Below are positions 20,770-34,601 of a stretch of 64,000 bases of DNA, in pieces. The notes under the pieces were generated by a model that saw only the letters and a list, made by a program, of their open reading frames with translations, was not told where the DNA came from and made no database searches. Source of the DNA: Bacteroidales bacterium (GTDB lineage Bacteria > Bacteroidota > Bacteroidia > Bacteroidales > UBA932). The position numbers and the translations under genes are program-made. Position 1 is the stretch's first letter, and each line of letters begins with the position of its first letter. Location: contig JAFZIN010000032.1 of assembly GCA_017554305.1 (NCBI GenBank), positions 44,316-108,315 of the forward strand, given 5' to 3'.

Positions 20770-22344
20770 TTAGAAAAATCCAGGGGTGTAACCGAACCAG
20801 TGCAGAACGGTCTGTCCCCAAAGTAAAATTACCAGCCAGCTGATAAACATCATTGTAATACCAAACTTAAAGGTATCACTCCAGCTGTATTGGTTTGTAG
20901 TATAGAGCAGTGCCGCAGGCTTGCTGTTAAATGGCAGCACATATACGTGACCTACAAGCATTGCAATAGGGAAGGCCAGACTCATAATAGGGTAGTTGAA
21001 ACTCTGCGCAACACCTATGGCAATAGGTACAAAGATAAGTGTCTGCATAGTCTTGCTTTGGAATATGAGGGCGCTCAAAAGCATAGTGCTTGTAAGTATC
21101 ATATACAGAGCCCAGTACGGTGTATTTGCCGTAATCCCGATAGATGCAAAGGCTGCATTTACCGCAGTGCCCGGAAGTCCCGTTGCATCCAGTCCCGCAC
21201 CCAGCGTATATGCGCCGGCAGAGAAGAGCAGCAGGTGCCATGGGATATCTACATCATTCCACTTGACCACTCCAATCTTTGGCATGAGAGCCACAACCGC
21301 TCCCAGGAATGCCACTGCTGTCTGGTTGATTCCGTGCTGTTTGTCTGTTGCCCAAAGAATGAGCACACAGAGGAAAATGGCAATTGCTCTGAACTCCTCT
21401 CCCTTCATCTTGCCCATGGCCTCCAACTCTGTCTTCAACCTCTCCATACCTCCCGGAATCTGAGGCTTTTGCTCATCTTTCTTCATTGGGAAAATAACTT
21501 TTGTACCAATAAACCAACCAATGAAGATAAGGAGTACGCTCATAGGGAAGGCGCACTTGAACCAATCCTGATAACTGAATGAACCAAGGCCAATTGCGCC
21601 GGCAATGAGTGAGCCTGCAAGCAGGGTTGCACCGGAACCGGTAAGGAAGGCGTTGGCTCCCAGGTTAATCTGGAAGAGGTTCTGTAACATGAGGTTACGT
21701 CCAAAGTTGTTTCTCTTTTCTCCTCCGGTGGCGCCATATATTGCACAGATTACCATCATAATAGGGAGCAGAATTGCAGCCTTTGCAGTTGTTGCGGAAA
21801 TAAAGGCTGAAAGCACCAGATTGATGATGATGAAACTGAATATGACTCCGCCGGCATTCTTTCCGAACTTGAGTACAAACCACAGGGCAAAACGCTTGGC
21901 TACCTGAGTCTTAACCAGCATTGAGGCCAGAACGAACGAGAGTATGTTCAGCCACATTACAGGGTGACCCAGCTGAGCGTAAGCGGTCTTTTCCGTGGTG
22001 ATTCCGGTAAGCACAATGCCCAGGATAACAATCAGTGAGGTGAGGTAGTTTGGAACAGCCTCTGTAATCCAGAGGATTATGGCTGCCACAAAGATGGCCA
22101 GCATTGCATAGTTGGCCCTAATAAACTGTGCCAGACCCAGATCGTTAAAACGCTTGAGCGCACTTCCGGAAAGAGCCTCCGTGTTCAGATGCTCCAGGAA
22201 AGGAATTTTTACAACATAATAAAGGAGGATGAACACCAAGATGGCGAGAGGCCCGCCGAAGCGCTGCATAGTCCGCTCAAAGCCGGATTTTTGCATCTTC
22301 GGCAGCTTCTCGATCTTGTAGTTGTTCATATCAAGAACATCCAT
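20770..22344 (-). CDS. DASS/SLC13 family anion transporter
   Basis: A 524-residue inner-membrane transporter with about 12 helices. Family features: an early cytoplasmic segment, LWITEAVPNYLTSLIVI, the hairpin tip AFISATTAKAAILLPI (the SNT-type Na/substrate motif) and a second such segment with AFLTGSGATLLAGSL. SLC13/DASS members import dicarboxylates or sulfate, and yeast Pho87/Pho90/Pho91 in the same superfamily import phosphate, so substrate cannot be read from sequence. The gene start overlaps the stop of the CYTH gene by one base (TAATG), tying it to the phosphate-themed block. Confidence 0.86.
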   Translation of the reverse strand: MDVLDMNNYKIEKLPKMQKSGFERTMQRFGGPLAILVFILLYYVVKIPFLEHLNTEALSGSALKRFNDLGLAQFIRANYAMLAIFVAAIILWITEAVPNYLTSLIVILGIVLTGITTEKTAYAQLGHPVMWLNILSFVLASMLVKTQVAKRFALWFVLKFGKNAGGVIFSFIIINLVLSAFISATTAKAAILLPIMMVICAIYGATGGEKRNNFGRNLMLQNLFQINLGANAFLTGSGATLLAGSLIAGAIGLGSFSYQDWFKCAFPMSVLLIFIGWFIGTKVIFPMKKDEQKPQIPGGMERLKTELEAMGKMKGEEFRAIAIFLCVLILWATDKQHGINQTAVAFLGAVVALMPKIGVVKWNDVDIPWHLLLFSAGAYTLGAGLDATGLPGTAVNAAFASIGITANTPYWALYMILTSTMLLSALIFQSKTMQTLIFVPIAIGVAQSFNYPIMSLAFPIAMLVGHVYVLPFNSKPAALLYTTNQYSWSDTFKFGITMMFISWLVILLWGQTVLHWFGYTPGFF

Positions 22345-22814
22345 TACTTCCAGTTCTTGTACGGGTTCTTCATTAACATGGAGTTGTAATATTTTACATC
22401 TCCGGTTACCTCCTCACCCAACCACTCAGGTTTGTCAAAGGCCTCATTCTCGCTTGAAAGTTCAACCTCGGCAACAGTAAGTCCGTCGTTGTCTCCGTAG
22501 AACTCATCTACCTCAAATGTGTGCTCTCCGGCTTTAACCAGATAGCGGGTCTTGTCAATAACACCAGGCTCGCAGATCTTCAGAAGATCCTGAACCTCAG
22601 CAACAGGAATCTCTTTCTCCCACTCAAAACGGCTTGCTCCGCTGTCTGAACCAATACCCTTTATTGTGATGAAACCCTTCTCTCCCTTTACGCGTACGCG
22701 TACGGTTCTTTCAGGAACAGAGCAAAGGTATCCCTGAGTGATACGGGTTGCTTTGAAAGCGGCATCCTTAAAGTTGCCCTTTACCAAAAACTTGCGTTCA
22801 ATTTCCTGTGCCAT
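22344..22814 (-). CDS. CYTH domain protein (triphosphate tunnel metalloenzyme)
   Basis: A 156-residue protein with the CYTH signature ExExK at residues 4-8 (EIERKF), then RVRVKGEKGFITIKG, RFEWEKEIP and EVDEFYGDNDGLTVAEVELSSE, giving the charged tunnel pattern of triphosphate-binding enzymes (inorganic tripolyphosphatase, thiamine triphosphatase or class IV adenylate cyclase). Single-domain bacterial forms are usually triphosphatases. It sits 2 bp after another protein with CYTH-like features and overlaps the DASS gene by one base. Confidence 0.9.
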   Translation of the reverse strand: MAQEIERKFLVKGNFKDAAFKATRITQGYLCSVPERTVRVRVKGEKGFITIKGIGSDSGASRFEWEKEIPVAEVQDLLKICEPGVIDKTRYLVKAGEHTFEVDEFYGDNDGLTVAEVELSSENEAFDKPEWLGEEVTGDVKYYNSMLMKNPYKNWK

Positions 22815-22816
22815 AA

Positions 22817-23455
22817 CTATTCGTTTGCTAGAGGTTTGTCACTCATTCCAATAACACGCTTAATAGCCTGCAGATAGTTGATATTTTCAACACCCTCAAG
22901 ACCAACGTCTTTGATAGTCTTCTTAATATCCTCAATCTCTGTAGACTCTGAATTGATGGTAACAACCTTTGCACCGTTGATAAGCACGTTGCCAACTTCG
23001 CAAATTGTGCCGTTAACCATATATCCAAAGCGCTGCTTGTGAACGCGCACTGCTGCAAGATCAGGATTAGCCTTTACCATTGCAATGAATTCATCAAAAG
23101 TATAGGTATCCTTTGTAAGAGCAGGCATCTCTACCATAAATGCAGGAAATACCTCTTTCTCCAGAACTTCCTTGCTGATAGGGAATTCACCCTTCATAAG
23201 AGGATTCCACTGCTCCAATCCGTCAACATTCTGAACAAAAGTTTTAATGTCCATCTTGCCGTCACGAATCTTGGTATTGTTTATATCGTTCTTTGCAGAG
23301 ATGATATAAATCTCATCACTCTCTCTCTCCCAAACCTTCTCAGGTACGGGGGCTGAGAGGCGTGCCATTCTCTTGTGAGCCTCACAGAAACACTGACCGA
23401 AACTGCGGAACTCAAAACGAGGCTTACTTATCTCACCAATTTTTAATTCTCCCAT
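22817..23455 (-). CDS. Conserved protein of unknown function, possible divergent CYTH relative
   Basis: A 212-residue cytoplasmic protein that I do not match to a named family. Two stretches look like halves of a CYTH tunnel fold: RFEFRSFG, EIYIISAKNDINNTKIRDG, DIKTF and GLEQWNP in the first half, and VRVHKQRFGYMVN, CEVGNVLINGAKVVTINSES in the second. Basic residues alternate in strands as in CYTH proteins. The gene lies 2 bp before the genuine CYTH gene and 26 bp after the lamin-tail lipoprotein, so a related triphosphate or polyphosphate role is an inference from context. Confidence is high that the gene is real, low for the fold. Confidence 0.7.
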   Translation of the reverse strand: MGELKIGEISKPRFEFRSFGQCFCEAHKRMARLSAPVPEKVWERESDEIYIISAKNDINNTKIRDGKMDIKTFVQNVDGLEQWNPLMKGEFPISKEVLEKEVFPAFMVEMPALTKDTYTFDEFIAMVKANPDLAAVRVHKQRFGYMVNGTICEVGNVLINGAKVVTINSESTEIEDIKKTIKDVGLEGVENINYLQAIKRVIGMSDKPLANE

Positions 23456-23481: not shown

Positions 23482-24297
23482 TTATTGAAGACCTGTTACA
23501 GGGTCTGAAGTATCATTGGTGTTCTTTGCACCAGGGGTAGCTGTGGTGAAGTACCACTTACCTGTTCCGTCCGGAACGCGGCTGTAAGAAGCAGGAGCTG
23601 TCTTAGCTACGGTTACAAGGTTGAAGTCATCCAAACCTTTCTTAACAGGATCTGTAAGCTGTACTCTTACGGCTTTCTTTGCAGAGAGGCCGGAAGTGAA
23701 TACGAGCTCAGGATCATAACCCTCATGCTTTCCGCCTGCACCTACAACATCCTCACTGTAAAGGAGAAGGTATGCGCCTGCTGCAAGATCACGGTTAGGA
23801 CCTGTCCAAACGTCCTTGGTATCCTTAAAGATCTTTATGCCCTTAATGTTGATAGCCTTACTTCCTGTGTTGATAATCTCTATGAACTTGTCGTTACCGT
23901 TAATCTCATTGAGTTTCAATGGAGTAAAGTCAATAGGAATTACACCTACAGTGTAAGATACTTCATTAGAAGTGGTTGAACCACCCTTAGTCTTTGCTAC
24001 TACGTTGTAGGTAACAACAGCTCCCATTGCCTGAGCAGGGATAACGCCTGTATAAACGTTAGAAGAACCGGTCATCTTAACGGTCTGAGCAGCACCGCCG
24101 CCAACCTTGTAAACAAGATTAACCTCTTCTATTGCAACGAATGCAGTAACTGTTGCAGTAACTGTTACATCATCAAGCTCGTTATAAGCTATGGTGTTGG
24201 AAATATTTGAAATTGCAGGGAATGGATATACATCGTCCTTAACACAAGATGTGAAGGCAAATACCATTGCCAAAGCAGCTATTATAAACTTTTTCAT
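23482..24297 (-). CDS. Lamin-tail domain lipoprotein
   Basis: A 271-residue lipoprotein (lipobox FTSC, Cys18). The middle holds an Ig-like region (NELDDVTVTATVTAFVAIEEVNLVY) and the C-terminal half a lamin-tail domain: LKLNEINGNDKFIEIINTG, INIKGIKIF, the LAAGAYLLLYSED strand and a closing YSRVPDGTGKWYFTTATPGAKN. Such domains occur in secreted nucleases and phosphatases, where they help anchor or bind DNA or surfaces, but no catalytic domain is present here. It follows the porin by 14 bp. I use the ATG opening MKKFII, not an earlier in-frame codon, since that gives a clean signal peptide. Confidence 0.85.
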   Translation of the reverse strand: MKKFIIAALAMVFAFTSCVKDDVYPFPAISNISNTIAYNELDDVTVTATVTAFVAIEEVNLVYKVGGGAAQTVKMTGSSNVYTGVIPAQAMGAVVTYNVVAKTKGGSTTSNEVSYTVGVIPIDFTPLKLNEINGNDKFIEIINTGSKAINIKGIKIFKDTKDVWTGPNRDLAAGAYLLLYSEDVVGAGGKHEGYDPELVFTSGLSAKKAVRVQLTDPVKKGLDDFNLVTVAKTAPASYSRVPDGTGKWYFTTATPGAKNTNDTSDPVTGLQ

Positions 24298-24311
24298 AAT
24301 CCGTAACATTT

Positions 24312-25682
24312 TTAGAAGTTAATCTCAAGACGAACGCTGATCATATTGTAGTCTACACCAGCCTTGCCCTTCTTCTCAACAACCTGAGTGTAGTCCTTTG
24401 TAGGTTTGCCTTCTGCATCGTGACCAACAAAGAGTTTGCCCTTACCGTTAGCATATCTGTCATTGTTGTTATGCTGGTAGTTGATCATAAACTTAACGTT
24501 GTTGTAGATCCACCAGTTGAGACCAATTGTGTAAGCCTCTGAAGAACCGCCGTATACAGTCTTGCTGTTGAGGTCACAGTACTCATAACGTCCTGCAATC
24601 TCAAGGTCTCCCCATTTGCGGCCGTATCTTACCTTGGTGTACTTGCCGCCGTTTGCGTCATAACGCTGTGAACCGCCGCAGAGAAGGTAACTTGCCTGAA
24701 TGTATCCGCCGCCAAAGTTCTTTACAGCATTGTCTGCTGCACTCTTCTTAAAGTGAACGTTGTCACCAATCCAAGCCATCTCATAACGGAGTCCCTGCCA
24801 GTGACCTGCCAACTCAACAGTCCAGAGCCAGTTGTGGTCAAAACCAGGAAGGTTGTCTGTATCAAGATATTTCTTACGGTTAATGCTTGTGGAGTTGCGG
24901 GCACTTGCTCTGTACATTCCCCATGCACTTGGCTCTACGCTTGTAAGAGCTCTGCGGTAAGATGCTGCAAAACCAATATGCAAGCTTGCGTCCTGCAGTT
25001 TGTAGAGAGGGCGGAATACAACCTTGGTTGTGATGGAGTAACCAGCATCACGGCCGTAATCCTTGTTGTTGTCTGCAACGTTTGTCCACTCCTCACTTCC
25101 TGCAACCTCCTGAGAGAAAGCGCCAATAGATCCCCAGAACCATTTGTCTGCATATTTTGCATTGATACCGAGGTGGCGAGAAGGAGCCAGTGCAGAAGTA
25201 ACCATAGGTCTCTCCATGAACATCAGGTAACGAGAAGAGGTGTTACGCTGCATAGAGAAGTTCTCCTTAAAGTTACCGGCCTGGAGTTCCAGATTCTTAA
25301 CGCCGGTGTAACGAACAATAGCGTCTTTAAGTTCAACAAGACCGTTTGCAAGGTCCATATCAAACTCTCCGTACCACTTGTTGGTTACCTGTGCCTTAAC
25401 GGCAAAACGAGCACGACGGATGCTTACGCCGTTGCCAATCTGATCGTAATCTTTGCTGTTCTTTCCAAAGAATACAGCTCCGTCAACTTGTGCACGTCCG
25501 TCAAACCAGAATTTGTAGCCACTCTTCTGTGACTCAAACACTGTAATACCGTCCTGAGCCTCAACATCCAGAACATCTGAATTAACTGCGACTCCGTACT
25601 GGTTGCGTTTTACGTTTTCCTGGGCAAATACTGCTCCTACTGAAAGCAGTAATGTAATTGCCAGCAATAATGTTTTTCGCAT
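24312..25682 (-). CDS. OprO/OprP-type outer-membrane porin
   Basis: A 456-residue protein with a signal peptide (residues 1-21, ending FAQ) and a 16-strand barrel of the phosphate-selective porin O/P family (PF07396). Recognisable are RRARFAVKAQVTNKWYGEFDMD, LELQAGNFKENFSM, the MVTSALAPSRHLG segment, and the C-terminal YTIGLNWWIYNNVKFMINYQHN followed by a terminal Phe (RLEINF). Homologues pass phosphate or polyphosphate, though Bacteroidota members are used for several anions and solutes. It starts 28 bp after the PiT-HTH gene on the same strand. Confidence 0.88.
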   Translation of the reverse strand: MRKTLLLAITLLLSVGAVFAQENVKRNQYGVAVNSDVLDVEAQDGITVFESQKSGYKFWFDGRAQVDGAVFFGKNSKDYDQIGNGVSIRRARFAVKAQVTNKWYGEFDMDLANGLVELKDAIVRYTGVKNLELQAGNFKENFSMQRNTSSRYLMFMERPMVTSALAPSRHLGINAKYADKWFWGSIGAFSQEVAGSEEWTNVADNNKDYGRDAGYSITTKVVFRPLYKLQDASLHIGFAASYRRALTSVEPSAWGMYRASARNSTSINRKKYLDTDNLPGFDHNWLWTVELAGHWQGLRYEMAWIGDNVHFKKSAADNAVKNFGGGYIQASYLLCGGSQRYDANGGKYTKVRYGRKWGDLEIAGRYEYCDLNSKTVYGGSSEAYTIGLNWWIYNNVKFMINYQHNNNDRYANGKGKLFVGHDAEGKPTKDYTQVVEKKGKAGVDYNMISVRLEINF

Positions 25683-25710: not shown

Positions 25711-27318
25711 TTAAATTGATTTTATAAATGTTATAAGGTTATCGCTACGCTGTAATCCCAATTTGGATCTTAATCTGTAGCGATTAATTTCAACGCTTTT
25801 TGGTGTAATATTCATTAGTGAAGCTATGTATTTGCTTGAAAATCCCTGTCTTAGGAGGGTTGCAAGTTTTCTCTCATTCTCGGTAAGATGAGGGAACGCC
25901 TCCATTAGCCTCATATTAAAGTCTTTGTGGAGTTCCTCGCTGCGGGAATAGAAGTCGTTCATTTCTCTGGTGAAGTACATTCTATCGTGAAGAGACTTAA
26001 GCAACTCTTCTGTGCGGGCGTCCTTCTCTGCTCCGTCCTTGGTTGAGCGCACCATCTTCAACCGGTCAAAGACGCTCTCCATATAGTTCTTCTGCTCGCT
26101 TATTCCCATTGCAAAGTCTACCAGCTCTTTACGCTTGTTTTCCAGCTTGTTGAGAAGATCCTTCTCTGTCATCTCCGCCCTTACCTCCAATGCGGAGAGA
26201 GATTTCTGGGTGGAGTAGGAGCGCTGCTGCTGAGAACGCAATATCTGTTTGTTGAGGTTGTTCTTGTTCTGACGGCGAACAAAGAACATCACTCCGCCAA
26301 CGGTGAGGAATATTCCCAAAACTATTACGGTTCCAAGTATCTCTCTGTCTAAAATCTTTCCTAAGCAGAAGGAGAGCAGAAGCGCCAAAATAGGTGAGAG
26401 GTAGGTAGTTACAATGCCCTTTATAATTTCCGGCCCCTCTGTAAGTGTTCTTTTGCTGAATATGGAGATGCCTGCAAGTGAGGCAATGAAGAGCGTACCT
26501 GCAGGAAGCGGAGTTGCTCTCAAACCCACATACTGCGGAAGCGGAGAGGTGAAGAGTGCAAAGCAAACCAAAAGTCCCATCATAAGTGAAAGTATAGACT
26601 GAGGGTTTGTATCCAGCTCATAATCTGCAATATCCCACTTGTCTCTGTTAATGCTTCGTGCCACAAAAGGTATCAGAACTATTACCGCTCCGCCTGCAAT
26701 GTATGGAGCAAGTGTTCCGTATTCAGATGGCAAGTAGGTGAATATCATGGAGTTGTTGAGGGCTGCCGCAGGAATCAGCAGCAGCGCAACTATGGTTGCC
26801 AGTGAGAGCATTCTGGCCTCCGTCTTTGCAAAATGATTCTTTCCGCCTCTCTGCATTAGGGCAAAGAGAAGGTAGAATAAGGCAGAGATTAAGGCACAGA
26901 ATAAAGGTGCCGCAATCCAGGAGAGGATATACGGCATAGACTCTTTAAATGTTATGGTATCTCCGTTTGCCAGTCCCAATCCCGCAATGGCGGCAATAAA
27001 GGCAAACGGAACCGCAACAAAGCGGCTCAGTTTCCACATAATTGCTGCGGTAAGGGCGGTGGCCATTCCCACAGGGAGTATGTTGGCTACAGATTTAGGA
27101 GAGAGAAGCCCCTCTGTCATCTGAGCAAAGTATTCCGGATAAAAGCAAGGAAGAACAATTCCTGCAATTAATAAGAATGGAGCAACTACTCTTATAAATA
27201 TTCTCTCTCCGGCTCCTGAAGCCAGTACGCTGCCGCCTATATAGGGGTAGTCCATCAGCATTAAGGCTGAGGCGGCAAGCAGCAGGGAGATGATAATATA
27301 TAAGAGGGTGATATCCAT
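25711..27318 (-). CDS. PiT-like membrane protein fused to coiled coil and LuxR-type HTH
   Basis: A 535-residue fusion. Residues 1-348 hold about ten transmembrane helices with two PiT (inorganic phosphate transporter) repeats: repeat 1 about 73-152 (NILPVGMATALTAAIMW, GLGLANGD, ILSWIAAPLFCALISA), and repeat 2 about 240-320 (LPAGTLFIASLAGISIFS, IIKGIVTTYLSPILALL). The GANDxxN signature and the PSSSH-type residues of working PiT carriers are absent (PFAFIAA and LPAGTLF at those places). A coiled coil follows (about 352-460), then a LuxR/GerE-type HTH (about 470-535: LTENERKLATLLRQG, YIASLMNITPKSVEINRYRLRSKLGL). This is a candidate one-component, membrane-bound transcription factor using a PiT fold as sensor. 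It overlaps the DUF47 gene by one base and precedes the porin by 28 bp. Confidence 0.85.
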   Translation of the reverse strand: MDITLLYIIISLLLAASALMLMDYPYIGGSVLASGAGERIFIRVVAPFLLIAGIVLPCFYPEYFAQMTEGLLSPKSVANILPVGMATALTAAIMWKLSRFVAVPFAFIAAIAGLGLANGDTITFKESMPYILSWIAAPLFCALISALFYLLFALMQRGGKNHFAKTEARMLSLATIVALLLIPAAALNNSMIFTYLPSEYGTLAPYIAGGAVIVLIPFVARSINRDKWDIADYELDTNPQSILSLMMGLLVCFALFTSPLPQYVGLRATPLPAGTLFIASLAGISIFSKRTLTEGPEIIKGIVTTYLSPILALLLSFCLGKILDREILGTVIVLGIFLTVGGVMFFVRRQNKNNLNKQILRSQQQRSYSTQKSLSALEVRAEMTEKDLLNKLENKRKELVDFAMGISEQKNYMESVFDRLKMVRSTKDGAEKDARTEELLKSLHDRMYFTREMNDFYSRSEELHKDFNMRLMEAFPHLTENERKLATLLRQGFSSKYIASLMNITPKSVEINRYRLRSKLGLQRSDNLITFIKSI

Positions 27319-27977
27319 TAAAGAGCTCTTTTTATGGTCATTACAGAGAGTTGCTCAGCCACCTTAACTGCCGCTTTTGCCAGATCTTCTATGTGGAGGG
27401 CAAAGTAACGGAGGTGGAACTTCTCACTGAGTTTTAGGTTATCCATGTTGTGGAATACCGTACGCTTAATGGACTGGCTCACTCTAACGGCCTCTTTCTC
27501 ATAGAAATAGACCTGTGCGGTGGTTTCAGATACGCTCTTTGGGGAGGTAAAGTAGGCCTTGGTTGCAGGAATTGTATTCTCTGCCGCCATTGCAGCCAAC
27601 TCACTGAGTTTCACAAACTCACGTTTAAGTTCGTTAGGAATTTTTGGAGACTCAATCTCAAACTGGATAAGGTCTGTGCTTATAATCACAAAGATATGAT
27701 CCAAACGCTCCAACAGACGCATAATGTCTCCTCTGGAGCGGATAAGGTAGCCTCTGGAATAGAGCATGTTCTCAATCTCTCTGGTCTTGGAGGAGGATTC
27801 GCTCTCTAAGGTAACCATCCTGCCCAAATTCTCCGTAAAACTATCCTCATCACCATACAGATAGTTCTTTACACCCTCCTTAAAGACTATTAAAGCAGCG
27901 TCTACGGTCTCCAGCAGGCACCCTACAGACTTTTCAAGCCTGTCTGATTTCCTGGAAAATATTTCATTTAACCCCAT
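27318..27977 (-). CDS. DUF47/PhoU-like protein (Pit accessory)
   Basis: A 219-residue all-helical cytoplasmic protein of the DUF47 family, usually encoded next to PiT transporters and structurally like PhoU. Typical segments: RLEKSVGCLLETVDAALIVFKEGVKNYL, LGRMVTLESESSSKTREIENMLYSRG (the conserved Ex-E-x-D/E helix face) and RGDIMRLLERLDHIFVI. It probably controls the adjoining PiT-HTH protein, whose gene starts on the shared base. First gene of the minus-strand block; promoter at 28006-28013. Confidence 0.9.
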   Translation of the reverse strand: MGLNEIFSRKSDRLEKSVGCLLETVDAALIVFKEGVKNYLYGDEDSFTENLGRMVTLESESSSKTREIENMLYSRGYLIRSRGDIMRLLERLDHIFVIISTDLIQFEIESPKIPNELKREFVKLSELAAMAAENTIPATKAYFTSPKSVSETTAQVYFYEKEAVRVSQSIKRTVFHNMDNLKLSEKFHLRYFALHIEDLAKAAVKVAEQLSVMTIKRAL

Positions 27978-28005
27978 GGCGTAACTCTACATTATTATTT
28001 GAGTA

Positions 28006-28013
28006 CAAATATA
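28006..28013 (-). promoter_or_regulatory. -7 element TATATTTG for the DUF47/PiT-HTH operon
   Basis: Minus-strand TATATTTG, 28 bp before the DUF47 ATG. No TTG is seen 19-21 bp upstream; that region is instead occupied by the inverted repeat, as expected for a regulated or activator-dependent promoter. Confidence 0.65.
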
Positions 28014-28025
28014 TATTAATAGAGT

Positions 28026-28057
28026 CATATTTAAACCCTATGTAGAGTTTAAATATG
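28026..28057. repeat. Perfect 11-bp inverted repeat (candidate operator)
   Basis: CATATTTAAAC (28026-28036) and GTTTAAATATG (28047-28057) are exact reverse complements with a 10-bp spacer, a centre-to-centre separation of 21 bp, about two helical turns. It lies 12 bp upstream of the -7 element at 28006-28013 and covers the -33 position. Probably a dimeric HTH binding site; the PiT-HTH protein encoded in the operon is the obvious candidate. Confidence 0.7.
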
Positions 28058-28134
28058 TGAATCTATGCCGCCTGATGCGTATTTATAGAGGTTTTGTGGG
28101 GTGCTTGTAGAGTTTTTTGAGAGGTCTTTGAGGG

Positions 28135-30800: not shown

Positions 30801-31043
30801 CTAAAGCAAATCCTTAATATCTGCCAGCTTATTGATAATTACATAGACCGTCAACCCCGCAATGGAGTTGATTCCCGTCTTGTGTGATATATTCTTGCGG
30901 TGCGTGATAACGGTGTGGATGGAGATATTCAAGCGGTCTGCTATCTCCTTGTTGGTAAGCCCTTTGGCCACCTCCACAAGAACCTCCTTCTCCCTCTCTG
31001 AGAGAGCCTCGGTTTCCGTTGTCCGCTCAAACTGACTCATCAC
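30801..31043 (-). CDS. Stand-alone LuxR-type HTH DNA-binding protein
   Basis: An 80-residue protein that is nearly all a GerE/LuxR HTH domain: LSEREKEVLVEVAKGLTNKE, IADRLNISIHTVITHRKNI and the final HKTGINSIAGLTVYV helix. No receiver or ligand domain is attached. Its start codon overlaps the stop of the hemerythrin gene upstream (ATGA), so the two products are probably made together and act as a split sensor-regulator. A second in-frame Met at residue 2 could also be used. Confidence 0.88.
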   Translation of the reverse strand: MMSQFERTTETEALSEREKEVLVEVAKGLTNKEIADRLNISIHTVITHRKNISHKTGINSIAGLTVYVIINKLADIKDLL

Positions 31044-31732
31044 ACTCTGTTGTTCTGTTTCTCCAATCTTATCATAATTGGAACAAGAATCCTGCTCTCA
31101 ATTATGGTGTGTTTTTTAAGATCGCTCTCAATTGAGATGATATCTTTAAGTATGTCAAACCTCAAAGACTGTGAATACTCCTCAGGCAGATACTTTAAGA
31201 TGATATTTCTGAGGTCTGCAAGTTTGTCCTCTATACCGGAATGATTTTCAGTGAATTGCATAACCTTGAATGCGGTATTGCCGTCACTCTTTCCTTTAAT
31301 GAGAGAGAGGAGATACGGAAAAACCGTCTCCTCCTCAAAATTAAAGTGGTGCATAAGTTCCGCCTGATAATCATCATAGAACTTATTCAGAATCTTCTGA
31401 TTGTTAGGGTCTTTCCCCTCAAGCAGTTTATGAATCTTAAGGTGCAGACTCTTAAAGATTTTCTTAGAATAATACTTGTGAGAAACCTTCAGGTAGTTTA
31501 CCAGATGTTCCAGATCTTTGGCGGTAAGCAAATCTACCTGAGGCTCAAACTCGCTGGAAGAGAAGATGTTGCAAATGTTGGTAAAGAGGTGCGCAGAGAG
31601 TTTGTATCTGTGGCAAATCTGCTCAACCGTGGCCTCATGAAAGCCAAGCTTTACGTTCATTCTCTCCAAAACGGAGACAAGCAGCGGGTTGGACGCAATA
31701 ACGTCCGCAAGTTTATCTTTCTCTGTAATCAT
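31040..31732 (-). CDS. Hemerythrin-domain protein, putative redox/NO/O2 sensor
   Basis: A 230-residue protein. The N-terminal part resembles the ScdA/RIC-like DUF542-type region (VIASNPLLVSVLERM), and the hemerythrin domain supplies a plausible diiron set: SHKYY, HHFNFEEE (H-x3-E), TENHSGIE and KKHTIIESR. It is translationally coupled (ATGA) to the HTH gene and starts 1 bp after the gcvP stop. I chose the ATG at 31732; an earlier in-frame ATG at 31777 would overlap the gcvP end by 44 bp and extend into a poorly conserved tail. Likely cytoplasmic. Confidence 0.85.
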   Translation of the reverse strand: MITEKDKLADVIASNPLLVSVLERMNVKLGFHEATVEQICHRYKLSAHLFTNICNIFSSSEFEPQVDLLTAKDLEHLVNYLKVSHKYYSKKIFKSLHLKIHKLLEGKDPNNQKILNKFYDDYQAELMHHFNFEEETVFPYLLSLIKGKSDGNTAFKVMQFTENHSGIEDKLADLRNIILKYLPEEYSQSLRFDILKDIISIESDLKKHTIIESRILVPIMIRLEKQNNRV

Positions 31733-31733
31733 C

Positions 31734-34601
31734 TTATTCACAGTTGCAAACAAGGTTGCGGTCTCCGTAACCGTCATCTACACGGGAGACAGCCGGCCAG
31801 AACTTGTTCTCTCTTATCCACTTAAGAGGATAAGCAGCAAGTTCTCTTGAGTATGGATGGCTCCAACTGTCTGAGCAGCACTCCTCTGCAGGGTGCGGTG
31901 CGCAGCTTACAGGATTGTCCTTTGCATCAAACTCTCCGCTTGCAATCTTCTGGCACTCTGCCTTAATTGTCTTCATTGCCTCAATGAAGCGGTCCATCTC
32001 CTCCTTTGGTTCACTCTCCGTTGGCTCAACCATAAGTGTCTCATGCACAGGGAATGAGAGGGTTGGAGCGTGGAATCCAAAGTCCATAAGTCTCTTTGCA
32101 ATATCTGTAGAACCAACGCCGAATTTCTCTTTGAAATCTCTGCAATCCAACAGACATTCGTGAGCAACTCTTCCTGTTACACCTGAGTAAACAGTTGGGT
32201 ATTCGTTCTTTAGAGACTCTGCAATATAGTTTGCATTAAGTATTGCAACCTGGCTTGATTCCTTAAGACCCTGTGCACCCAGCAGTTTTATGTAAGCGTG
32301 AGTGATTGGGAGAAGCAGCGGATTTCCAAAGGCCGCAGCAGATACAGCATCTGTTGTTCCCATACCGTCCTCTTCAGGATGTCCAGGCAGGTAAGGAGCC
32401 AACTCTGCAGTTGAGCAGATAGGACCAACACCAGGACCGCCGCCGCCGTGAGGCATAGCGAACGATTTGTGGAGGTTGAGGTGGCAGATATCGGCACCAA
32501 TTGTTCCCGGATTTGTAAGACCAATCTGTGCGTTCATATTTGCACCGTCCATATAAACCTTTCCGCCGTATTTATGAATTGCATCAATAATCTCCTTAAT
32601 CTTAACCTCAAATACTCCGTGAGTAGAAGGGTATGTAATCATCAGACCAGCAAGGCGTTCTCCTGCCTGCTCTGCCTTCTGAACCAACTCCTCAACGTTA
32701 ATGTTTCCCTTCTCATCACAGCCAACCAGAACAATCTCAAAGCCTGCCATTGCAGCAGAAGCAGGATTTGTTCCGTGAGCAGAAGTAGGAATAATCATCA
32801 CCTTTCTATCTGTCTGACCCTTAGCCTCAAAGAAGCGGCGTATGGTTGTAAGTCCGGCATACTCTCCGGCAGCACCGGAATTTGGCTGAAGCGAGCAGGC
32901 TGCAAATCCGGTAATGGTCTCCAAATCCTGCATCAGTTCATGAATGAGTTGCATATAGCCATCTACCTGATTTTTAGGAGCCAGAGGGTGAACGTTGGTA
33001 AGTTCGCTCCAACTTAGCGGCATCATCTCAACAGCAGCGTTGAGTTTCATTGTGCAGCTTCCCAGCGGAATCATTGAGTGAGCCAGAGAGATGTCTTTTC
33101 TCTCCAACATCTTAATAAAGCGCATCATAGCGCTCTCACTGTGGTAAGAGTTGAATACCTTCTGAGTAAGAATAGGAGTCTCTCTCTTCATAAATGTTCT
33201 CTCCACCGGGCAGTGGTGACCGCCATTACCGCATCCGCAACCGCACTGGCAGTTAACCTCTACTCCAAAGATTCCCAGAATCTTATGAGCCTCGCTCTTG
33301 CAGCTTAGTTCGTCAAAACTCATTCTGATTTTGCCGCACTTTGTATAGTAGAAGTTGAATCCAGCCTCAAGCGCCTTTGCTCTAATAGTATCAACATCAA
33401 GCTTTTGCATCATGCCGGTGAGATCTCTTCTGCCCTTAATCTCTATAGTGTCAAAGAACTCCTCATTAGAAAGAACATATCCAACCTCTTTGAGTTTTCC
33501 GGCAACTTTGTGAGCAAATTTTTCTCCATTCTCCGCGATAGATTTCAGTCCCTCCGGTCCGTGATAAACTGCATACATTCCGCTCATTGTGGCCATAAGT
33601 GCAGTAGCCGTGCAGACATTGGAAGTAGCCTTCTCTCTCTTAATGTGCTGCTCTCTTGTCTGAAGCGCCAGTCTTACCGCCTTGTTTCCCAAACGGTCTA
33701 CCGTAACTCCTATAATACGGCCCGGCACGCTTCTCTTATACTCCTCTCTGGTTGCCAGATAGCCGGCAGTTGGTCCGCCGTAACCCATTGGGAGTCCGAG
33801 TCTCTGAGTGCTTCCAACAGCAATGTCTGCACCCCAGGCAGCAGGTTCCTTCAGAACCGCAAGAGCAAGAATATCACAGTAAGCGGTTACCATGCAACCC
33901 GCCTCGTGCATCTTTGCACAGAATGCGGAGTAGTCTCTAACCTCTCCGTTTGCTGCAGGGTACTGAACCATAGCGCCAAAGCACATTGGGTCTCCCTCAA
34001 ACTTATCCCACTCTCCCATAACTATCTTAATGCCAAGACCTTCTGCGCGAGTCTTAAGAACGCTCTTAACCTGAGAGAAGAGTTGGTCATCTACAAAGAG
34101 TACATTTTTTCCCGCCTTAACGGCATCTCTGCTGCGGAGGTTGAACATAACTCTCATTGCCTCTGCTGCAGCCTGTGCATCGTCCAGCATTGAGCAGTTG
34201 GAGAGGGCAAATCCGGTGAGTGAACTTATAACGGTCTGGAAAATAAGCAGCGCCTCCAATCTTCCCTGAGAAATCTCTGCCTGGTACGGAGTGTAAGAGG
34301 TATACCAGCAAGGGTTCTCAAAGATATTGCGGATAATAACCGGAAGAACGCCGGTTCCATAGTATCCGCATCCAATCATTGAACGGAAATTTTTGTTTTT
34401 GGAGACCATCTCCTTAAGGTGAGCCAGGTACTCGTTCTCTCCCATAGGGGCATCCATCTTAAGATCTTCCTTTAAAAGGATGTTTTCCGGAACGGTCTGT
34501 TTTACAAGCTCTTCCATTGAGTTAACACCAAGCACCTCAAGCATTGCCTTAATGTCCTGCTCTCTTGGTCCTATGTGTCTTTGCGCAAAAGTATATGACA
34601 T
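31734..34601 (-). CDS. gcvP: Glycine dehydrogenase (decarboxylating), P-protein
   Basis: A 955-residue full-length GcvP of the single-chain type, the PLP-dependent P-protein of the glycine cleavage system. Motifs: FAQRHIGPREQD start, GYYGTGVLPVI, LLDDAQAAAEAM-type region, the C-terminal GSCTMKLNAAVEM, NSGAAGEYAGL, TYPSTHGVFE and the PLP lysine in CHLNLHKSFAMPHGGGGPG. A Cys/Gly-rich insertion (CQCGCGCGNGG) lies before the second half. I start at the ATG at 34601 rather than an in-frame TTG 9 bp upstream. It precedes the hemerythrin and HTH genes with a 1-bp gap. Other gcv genes are not in the window. Confidence 0.95.
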   Translation of the reverse strand: MSYTFAQRHIGPREQDIKAMLEVLGVNSMEELVKQTVPENILLKEDLKMDAPMGENEYLAHLKEMVSKNKNFRSMIGCGYYGTGVLPVIIRNIFENPCWYTSYTPYQAEISQGRLEALLIFQTVISSLTGFALSNCSMLDDAQAAAEAMRVMFNLRSRDAVKAGKNVLFVDDQLFSQVKSVLKTRAEGLGIKIVMGEWDKFEGDPMCFGAMVQYPAANGEVRDYSAFCAKMHEAGCMVTAYCDILALAVLKEPAAWGADIAVGSTQRLGLPMGYGGPTAGYLATREEYKRSVPGRIIGVTVDRLGNKAVRLALQTREQHIKREKATSNVCTATALMATMSGMYAVYHGPEGLKSIAENGEKFAHKVAGKLKEVGYVLSNEEFFDTIEIKGRRDLTGMMQKLDVDTIRAKALEAGFNFYYTKCGKIRMSFDELSCKSEAHKILGIFGVEVNCQCGCGCGNGGHHCPVERTFMKRETPILTQKVFNSYHSESAMMRFIKMLERKDISLAHSMIPLGSCTMKLNAAVEMMPLSWSELTNVHPLAPKNQVDGYMQLIHELMQDLETITGFAACSLQPNSGAAGEYAGLTTIRRFFEAKGQTDRKVMIIPTSAHGTNPASAAMAGFEIVLVGCDEKGNINVEELVQKAEQAGERLAGLMITYPSTHGVFEVKIKEIIDAIHKYGGKVYMDGANMNAQIGLTNPGTIGADICHLNLHKSFAMPHGGGGPGVGPICSTAELAPYLPGHPEEDGMGTTDAVSAAAFGNPLLLPITHAYIKLLGAQGLKESSQVAILNANYIAESLKNEYPTVYSGVTGRVAHECLLDCRDFKEKFGVGSTDIAKRLMDFGFHAPTLSFPVHETLMVEPTESEPKEEMDRFIEAMKTIKAECQKIASGEFDAKDNPVSCAPHPAEECCSDSWSHPYSRELAAYPLKWIRENKFWPAVSRVDDGYGDRNLVCNCE

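Follow-up and report, generated by a model that had tools for sequence, protein, structure and literature searches.

A single reading frame in a Bacteroidales genome encodes a membrane domain that, by profile comparison, derives from a PiT phosphate transporter, followed by a helix-turn-helix (HTH) of the GerE/LuxR type. We propose that the product is probably a membrane-tethered, one-component phosphate sensor that regulates itself, with the former transporter as its sensor and its own operon under its control. The gene lies in a 64,000-nucleotide stretch of contig, here called the window, from a genome (G000) that is 89.5% complete. Fusions that, like the window protein, have lost the PiT transport motifs are referred to below as decayed and their membrane domain as PiT*; those that keep the motifs are called intact.

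The frame occupies positions 25,711–27,318 of the window on the minus strand and encodes 535 amino acids from an ATG start, with no internal stops. The PiT-derived membrane domain, which lacks the signature motifs, spans residues 1–350 (26,269–27,318, minus strand) and was identified with Pfam, hhalign, a motif table and a PDB profile search; the GerE/LuxR HTH comprises residues 478–529 (25,732–25,887, minus strand). The initial annotation had described an HTH at the C-terminal end of a PiT-like protein, and searches with the two Pfam models agree. GerE (PF00196) matched at 30.5 bits, passing its curated cut-off of 23.5, with KSVEINRYRLRSKLGL inside the match, and PHO4 (PF01384) matched the N-terminal part with an E-value of 9e-8, although its 31.9 bits fall slightly below the curated cut-off of 33.7. 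Among seven further decayed relatives (L036–L042), L039 (36.4) and L042 (42.7) passed the PHO4 cut-off. Scanning genome contigs of other Bacteroidales and Bacteroidia records, we confirmed 31 fusion loci from 46 pattern matches, mostly from ruminant guts according to the record titles. Both parts of the fusion are covered in 29 of these loci, and the remaining two begin within the gene at a contig end. The window fusion is confirmed as a genuine single protein and not an isolated case. A plasmid search returned linker/HTH-type matches in six records, none reaching 80% coverage, and a PDB search with the window protein by itself matched the linker/HTH end only.

Profile comparison with hhalign connects the membrane part to PiT transporters. 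A membrane profile of the 27-member family aligned with ten motif-intact PiT-HTH fusions over 312 columns (Prob 98.3, E 1.3e-14), and the same profile with six more divergent members, drawn from seven loci with L040 left out, aligned over 316 columns (Prob 99.4, E 1.8e-21). Reversed targets gave Prob 0.04–0.29, and the profile's own reverse 1.1. The two-repeat PiT layout and the PiT similarity put forward earlier are borne out by these alignments. All ten members of the intact-fusion alignment matched both PHO4 and GerE, and the intact fusions matched a set of 25 stand-alone PiTs at Prob 99.5. Compared directly with those PiTs, the decayed membrane profiles gave weak matches (Prob 4.7 and 31.5), and the PiT link of the decayed domain therefore goes via the intact fusions. 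The top PDB match of a 23-member profile was the PiT structure 6l85 (E 4.8e-6); the next two were weak (0.02).

Fusions of the same kind whose PiT part is intact occur in the window's own family (G012, G111) and in other genomes of the order, where the motifs read GANDAAN, PVSTSQ, GANNIAN and PVSSTQ or close variants. Across the order, a match spanning PiT and HTH was found in 23 of 393 genomes, with the HTH in frame in three more, giving fusions with a recognisable PiT part in at least 26 of 393 genomes and 17 families; the figure is a lower bound because three candidates were scored per genome, as are all counts from the order and class surveys by profile and protein, in which three to five were scored. 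The fusion, of which the initial annotation knew no described example, is thus not unique. Twenty-one of the 26 genomes keep all motifs, three are partly decayed (G730, G826, G847) and two have an internal stop (G222, G900), the G900 fusion being cut as well. In the class survey of 395 genomes, mostly of other orders, there was at least one full-length match (G512). A profile of the decayed domain matched 42 of the 393 order genomes; scores at the high level of the decayed type were confined to two members of the window's family, G000 and G010. Partial motif loss is seen in the PiT-HTH fusions L155, L157 and L161, which belong to other families. In two of 388 family genomes, DUF47 is joined directly to a GerE-type HTH, the PiT part is absent from the locus and a Porin_O_P gene lies behind (L276:1680–2648 and L045:841–1821). 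An apparent DUF47-PiT*-HTH triple fusion of 711 aa (G1065, locus L274) was rejected, as its frame crosses a run of N marking an assembly gap. Among the literature matches listed, which were mostly open-access and represented by titles and the starts of abstracts, none described a PiT-HTH fusion.

Motif content was tabulated for 73 sequences, after removal of duplicates, contained copies and HTH-bearing pieces shorter than 500 aa. All four motifs are kept in 24 fusions and in nine forms without an HTH, lost in 37 fusions including the window protein, and partly lost in three fusions; near-identical loci are included, so the decayed-locus counts are not independent. Among the nine HTH-less controls, L164, L165, L167 and L168 carry C-terminal extensions and two (L165, L168) end in a tether-like hydrophobic stretch, and for these reasons some of them may be cut or split fusions. 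The claim that the window protein lacks the residues with which PiT proteins bind phosphate and ions held in part. GAND..N and the first PVST-type motif are absent from all 37 decayed members, and the fourth motif still reads PVSPVH in two of them (L040, L042). Single motif positions have nevertheless been retained: at position 23, where GAND has its Asp, 27 decayed members carry D and the other 10 carry E, and the N188 belonging to GANNIAN is unchanged in all 37. Further along, D236 is D in 37 of 37 decayed fusions versus 2 of 24 intact ones. Mean pairwise identity among intact fusions (253 pairs) was 60.7% for the PiT part, 32.0% for the linker and 55.2% for the HTH, versus 36.3%, 62.4% and 79.1% among decayed fusions (666 pairs). 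The PiT part was less conserved than the linker in none of the 253 intact pairs and in 657 of the 666 decayed pairs. Because dN/dS of the decayed PiT part lies between 0.05 and 0.33 (12 of 13 pairs computable), we regard the domain as constrained and not as a relic.

Residues 327–346 (26,281–26,340, minus strand; hydropathy 2.45), followed by the basic sequence VRRQNK, probably form a helix that tethers the C-terminal part to the membrane. A strongly hydrophobic segment separates the PiT part from the linker in 23 of 24 intact fusions, in all three partly decayed ones and in the seven decayed ones listed (of 37). In the 18 residues that follow it, K and R equal or outnumber D and E in all 33 proteins, as expected with the HTH in the cytoplasm. 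Judged by hydropathy alone, a membrane helix separates sensor and HTH in the window protein and is flanked by basic residues towards the HTH; together with the Pfam and profile matches, this supports the earlier description of the protein as transporter-derived, membrane-tethered and, by domain content, DNA-binding. The linker (residues 356–467; 25,918–26,253, minus strand) is strongly conserved among decayed fusions by pairwise identity. A coiled coil had been proposed here, for which heptad scores give no clear support: the linker scored 0.47 and its shuffles 0.41 on average, with 349 of 2000 shuffles equalling or exceeding the linker, and its best 35-residue stretch reached 0.80 against 0.65, with 96 of 1000 shuffles as high.

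The fusion gene is the second of four minus-strand genes which, from their spacing and conserved order, appear to form one operon. The first encodes a DUF47/PhoU_div protein (27,318–27,977; Pfam 34.0 bits, cut-off 24.4) and shares a single overlapping base with the fusion gene. The third encodes a Porin_O_P protein of the phosphate-selective porin family (24,312–25,682; 130.9 bits, cut-off 20.9), and the fourth a lamin-tail-domain protein (23,482–24,309; 39.8 bits, cut-off 34.3) whose start looks lipoprotein-like by eye. Porin_O_P adjoins the fusion in 31 of 31 loci. DUF47 is a neighbour in 29 of 31 loci, and the two lacking it are those truncated by a contig end within the fusion gene. Intact fusions have the same neighbour genes. 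According to excerpts of a study on Flavobacterium johnsoniae, a Porin_O_P gene in the phoBR operon of that species shows no clear change under phosphate depletion, and nucleases with a lamin-tail domain show positive changes (PMC8115612).

Behind the operon, the window carries a gene with a CYTH domain and another, of 212 aa, that has no clear Pfam match (22,344–23,455, minus strand), the latter mostly 92–99% identical among decayed relatives. Each of the two recurs in three of four stand-alone DUF47-PiT loci of other families, which hints at an old phosphate/polyphosphate gene cluster. Porin_O_P was found in none of the four stand-alone DUF47-PiT pairs (L105–L108) within the 7 kb fetched, and the porin may therefore go with the HTH fusion. 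Elsewhere in the window, a hemerythrin-domain gene overlaps a gene for an 80-aa GerE-type HTH protein (30,801–31,777, minus strand), perhaps another sensor-regulator pair.

Upstream of the DUF47 gene lies the element TATATTTG (28,006–28,013, minus strand), which we take to be the −7 box on the basis of the Bacteroidota consensus TAnnTTTG. A site search located two candidate operators with the sequence CTCTACA on the same strand, a proximal one 34 bases upstream of the −7 box (28,041–28,047) and a distal one 99 bases upstream (28,106–28,112), together with the variants CTCTATT 11 bases (28,018–28,024) and CTCTATA 77 bases (28,084–28,090) upstream. A further CTCTACA lies in the opposite orientation between the −7 box and the DUF47 start (27,985–27,991, plus strand). 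With one decayed and one intact locus left out for having fewer than 100 bases upstream, C[TA][CA]TACA copies precede DUF47 in 35 of the 36 decayed loci, where dinucleotide shuffles gave a mean of 3.9 loci, and in 23 of the 26 that are intact or partial (shuffle mean 3.6). DUF47 loci without an HTH have the pattern in 3 of 32 cases, none among the nine HTH-less forms and three among 23 ordinary PiT loci, the latter containing a DUF47 ORF taken whatever its position relative to the PiT gene. The difference between intact/partial loci and these 32 gives a Fisher p of 6e-10, with related loci counted as independent. Most sites share one orientation, copies on the opposite strand occurring in 12 of the 36 decayed loci and 4 of the 23 intact ones. 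The exact CTCTACA accounts for 75 of the 84 sites counted in the decayed group and for 22 of 49 in the intact/partial group. Distances to the −7 box, read by eye with a slightly looser pattern, were 34–35 bases in 24, 99–100 in 19 and 55–56 in five of 36 decayed loci, and 65–69 bases in 11 of 23 intact loci. An unguided 6-mer count over 27 intact/partial loci ranked CTCTAC first, in 15 loci against 1.0 expected from mononucleotide shuffles. The co-occurrence of the sites with the HTH and their position at the promoter favour self-regulation by the fused HTH. We infer that this HTH binds the CTCTACA-type sequences; the partners that sequence search offers for the window's GerE-type domain are candidate sites.

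A wider regulon defined by the paired site was rejected, as matches in G000, G097, G108 and G129 were not enriched (26, versus 55 for the reversed control). Six of the 26 fall at the DUF47 promoter, two in G000 and four overlapping ones in G129; 18 of the other 20 lie inside mechanical ORFs, and the two outside (L231, L235) are at short fetched ends with no gene behind. For four of the in-ORF matches (L220, L221, L225, L230), an ORF also begins no more than 250 bases away. In G000 and G129, the DUF47 promoter is the one place where a paired site lies outside ORFs and is followed by a gene; the DUF47 promoters of G097 and G108 carry single sites, and the paired pattern was not found there. The NptA gene was likewise rejected as a regulon member, none of 11 NptA loci having a site outside ORFs. 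Among seven Pst loci, six are without a site outside ORFs and the seventh has one weak match between genes. All ten searched genomes with the decayed form, G000 included, encode an NptA-type cotransporter, and one of the ten has a PstC match over the cut-off; in G000, at 89.5% completeness, PstC gave no match at the threshold used. Full-length PhoB-like proteins at E 1e-30 occur in five of the ten genomes, and none was matched in G000, G097, G108, G129 or G114. At that threshold the PhoB model TIGR02154 matched the receiver part only (3–124) in G000, likewise the receiver part alone in G097 and G108, and was unmatched in G129 and G114; all five carry CTCTACA-type sites.

In a DUF47 tree of 69 rows (of 74, five near-identical decayed loci having been removed), the decayed type forms one clade among the fused loci with support 100/98, and one DUF47-HTH locus sits inside it. 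The partly decayed L161 groups with the intact L103 and L104, and L155 groups with L157 among other intact loci, which indicates that motif loss occurred more than once. The nine HTH-less forms occupy another region of this tree, intermixed with seven intact fusions. In the HTH tree, in which row L032, counted as 'other', is a truncated decayed-type copy, the decayed type is nested among intact fusions. Fusions occupy two places there, with six intact ones beside other regulators and three changes needed. It is therefore likely that a second fusion took place or that the HTH was exchanged, and the HTH tree does not support a single origin of the fusion. We consider it an even call that Bacteroidales possess phosphate transporters that double as DNA-binding transcription factors, transceptors acting on their own promoter. 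The window protein would then stand at the pure-sensor end of a series that runs from intact PiT-HTH forms through partial motif loss in two separate lineages and PiT*-HTH, its transport motifs lost and an Asp newly invariant, to DUF47-HTH without PiT.

The fusion, its PiT ancestry, the loss of motifs, the constraint on the domain, the gene order and the co-occurrence of sites with the HTH are computed results, and around them the following mechanism can be drawn. PiT*, its transport motifs gone but still under selection, would report phosphate, or else the state of whatever ion/phosphate site is left. The signal would reach the linker and GerE-type HTH in the cytoplasm either directly or by way of the DUF47 protein encoded alongside, and the HTH would bind the CTCTACA-type sites upstream of DUF47 and so control the operon DUF47 – PiT*HTH – Porin_O_P – lamin-tail. 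Such control would match outer-membrane phosphate entry to supply, with inner-membrane uptake probably left to the NptA-type Na/phosphate cotransporter. Since the sites lie upstream of or beside the promoter, activation would be favoured over repression. Phosphate is suggested as the signal by the PiT ancestry and the neighbouring genes, and a part for DUF47 in signalling is presumed; in its decayed state the domain may by now respond to Na+, to a different anion or to nothing at all. Counting against the proposed mechanism are the lack of genome-wide enrichment of the paired site and its absence from the G097 and G108 promoters, the NptA loci devoid of sites outside ORFs, the incompleteness of the genome and the two positions of fusions in the HTH tree. 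The DUF47 overlap, Porin_O_P, the relatives with an intact PiT part, purifying selection and the operator-like sites all strengthen the earlier reading of the protein as a sensor.

Other readings were weighed against this one. PiT* may be a mere membrane anchor or platform for DUF47, with DUF47 as the real phosphate sensor, which we consider less likely; in its favour are the two DUF47-HTH loci, which dispense with the PiT part while keeping Porin_O_P behind; the invariant D236, N188 and D/E23 (37 of 37), with dN/dS below 0.35, suggest that the domain does more than anchor. Those same retained positions D/E23 and N188, the purifying selection on the PiT part and the existence of intact fusions would also fit a transceptor that still transports phosphate or another ion through altered motifs, with the HTH as a local autoregulator. 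We regard this as distinctly unlikely, since GAND..N and the first PVST-type motif are absent from every decayed member and retained in all nine forms without an HTH, conservation of the PiT part falls below that of the linker in nearly all decayed pairs, and the NptA gene is present in each of the ten genomes searched.

The sites might instead serve a PhoB-type regulator, the fused HTH having other targets. PhoB boxes have an 11-base direct-repeat spacing, which candidate sites arranged as 11-base direct repeats resemble, and half of the ten decayed-form genomes encode PhoB-like proteins. The excerpts on F. johnsoniae, which place a Porin_O_P gene within a phoBR operon, point the same way (PMC8115612). 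We nevertheless consider this improbable: at E 1e-30 the PhoB model finds only its receiver part in G000, G097 and G108 and has no match in G129 and G114, although all five carry the sites; the Pst loci are almost devoid of sites outside ORFs; and DUF47 loci without an HTH rarely have them. An assembly or gene-calling error that merged two genes, finally, is next to inconceivable. The apparent triple fusion L274 was such an error and none was found for the window gene; the recurrence of the fusion, with 29 loci in other records spanning both parts, refutes it, and through-matches of the intact form in 23 sampled genomes of the order add to this.

If the self-regulating sensor is the correct reading, it would constitute a way of sensing phosphate that involves neither kinase nor response regulator, in genomes where PstC and full-length PhoB-like proteins were not found at the thresholds used, and would point to a function for DUF47 as a link between a PiT domain and transcription. 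It would also suggest that a nutrient pump was turned stepwise into a sensor controlling its own genes. The conversion of transporters to receptors is usually argued from end points; here the steps are open to testing, because intact, partly decayed, decayed and PiT-free forms share gene context and candidate operator.

Compared with known systems, the window protein shares with PiT/PHO4 transporters (PF01384; 6l85) the two-repeat membrane domain, an end-to-end profile match via the intact fusions and a DUF47 partner gene, but has lost the transport motifs, scores slightly under the Pfam cut-off and has gained a hydrophobic helix and a DNA-binding domain. The membrane-tethered SusR-like regulators of Bacteroidota have periplasmic propeller or TPR-type sensors and a C-terminal HTH. 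The order of sensor, membrane helix, linker and GerE-type HTH with direct DNA output is common to both, and similar C-termini were found; the window protein, however, would sense through a transporter-derived membrane domain and not a periplasmic one. In the Pst-PhoU-PhoR-PhoB system, a transporter and a PhoU-like protein are coupled to transcription of phosphate genes. The window locus would likewise tie a transporter-derived domain and a PhoU-like protein to phosphate-gene transcription, but with a single protein from membrane to DNA and neither kinase nor response regulator. The nearest described case found is Ks-Amt5, for which the excerpts available describe an ammonium transporter that has ceased to transport and now drives a fused histidine kinase (PMC5764959). 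Both proteins would use a nutrient transporter domain as a sensor fused to a signalling domain; in Ks-Amt5 the output is a histidine kinase and the ligand ammonium, whereas the window protein has a DNA-binding HTH as its output and phosphate as its proposed ligand.
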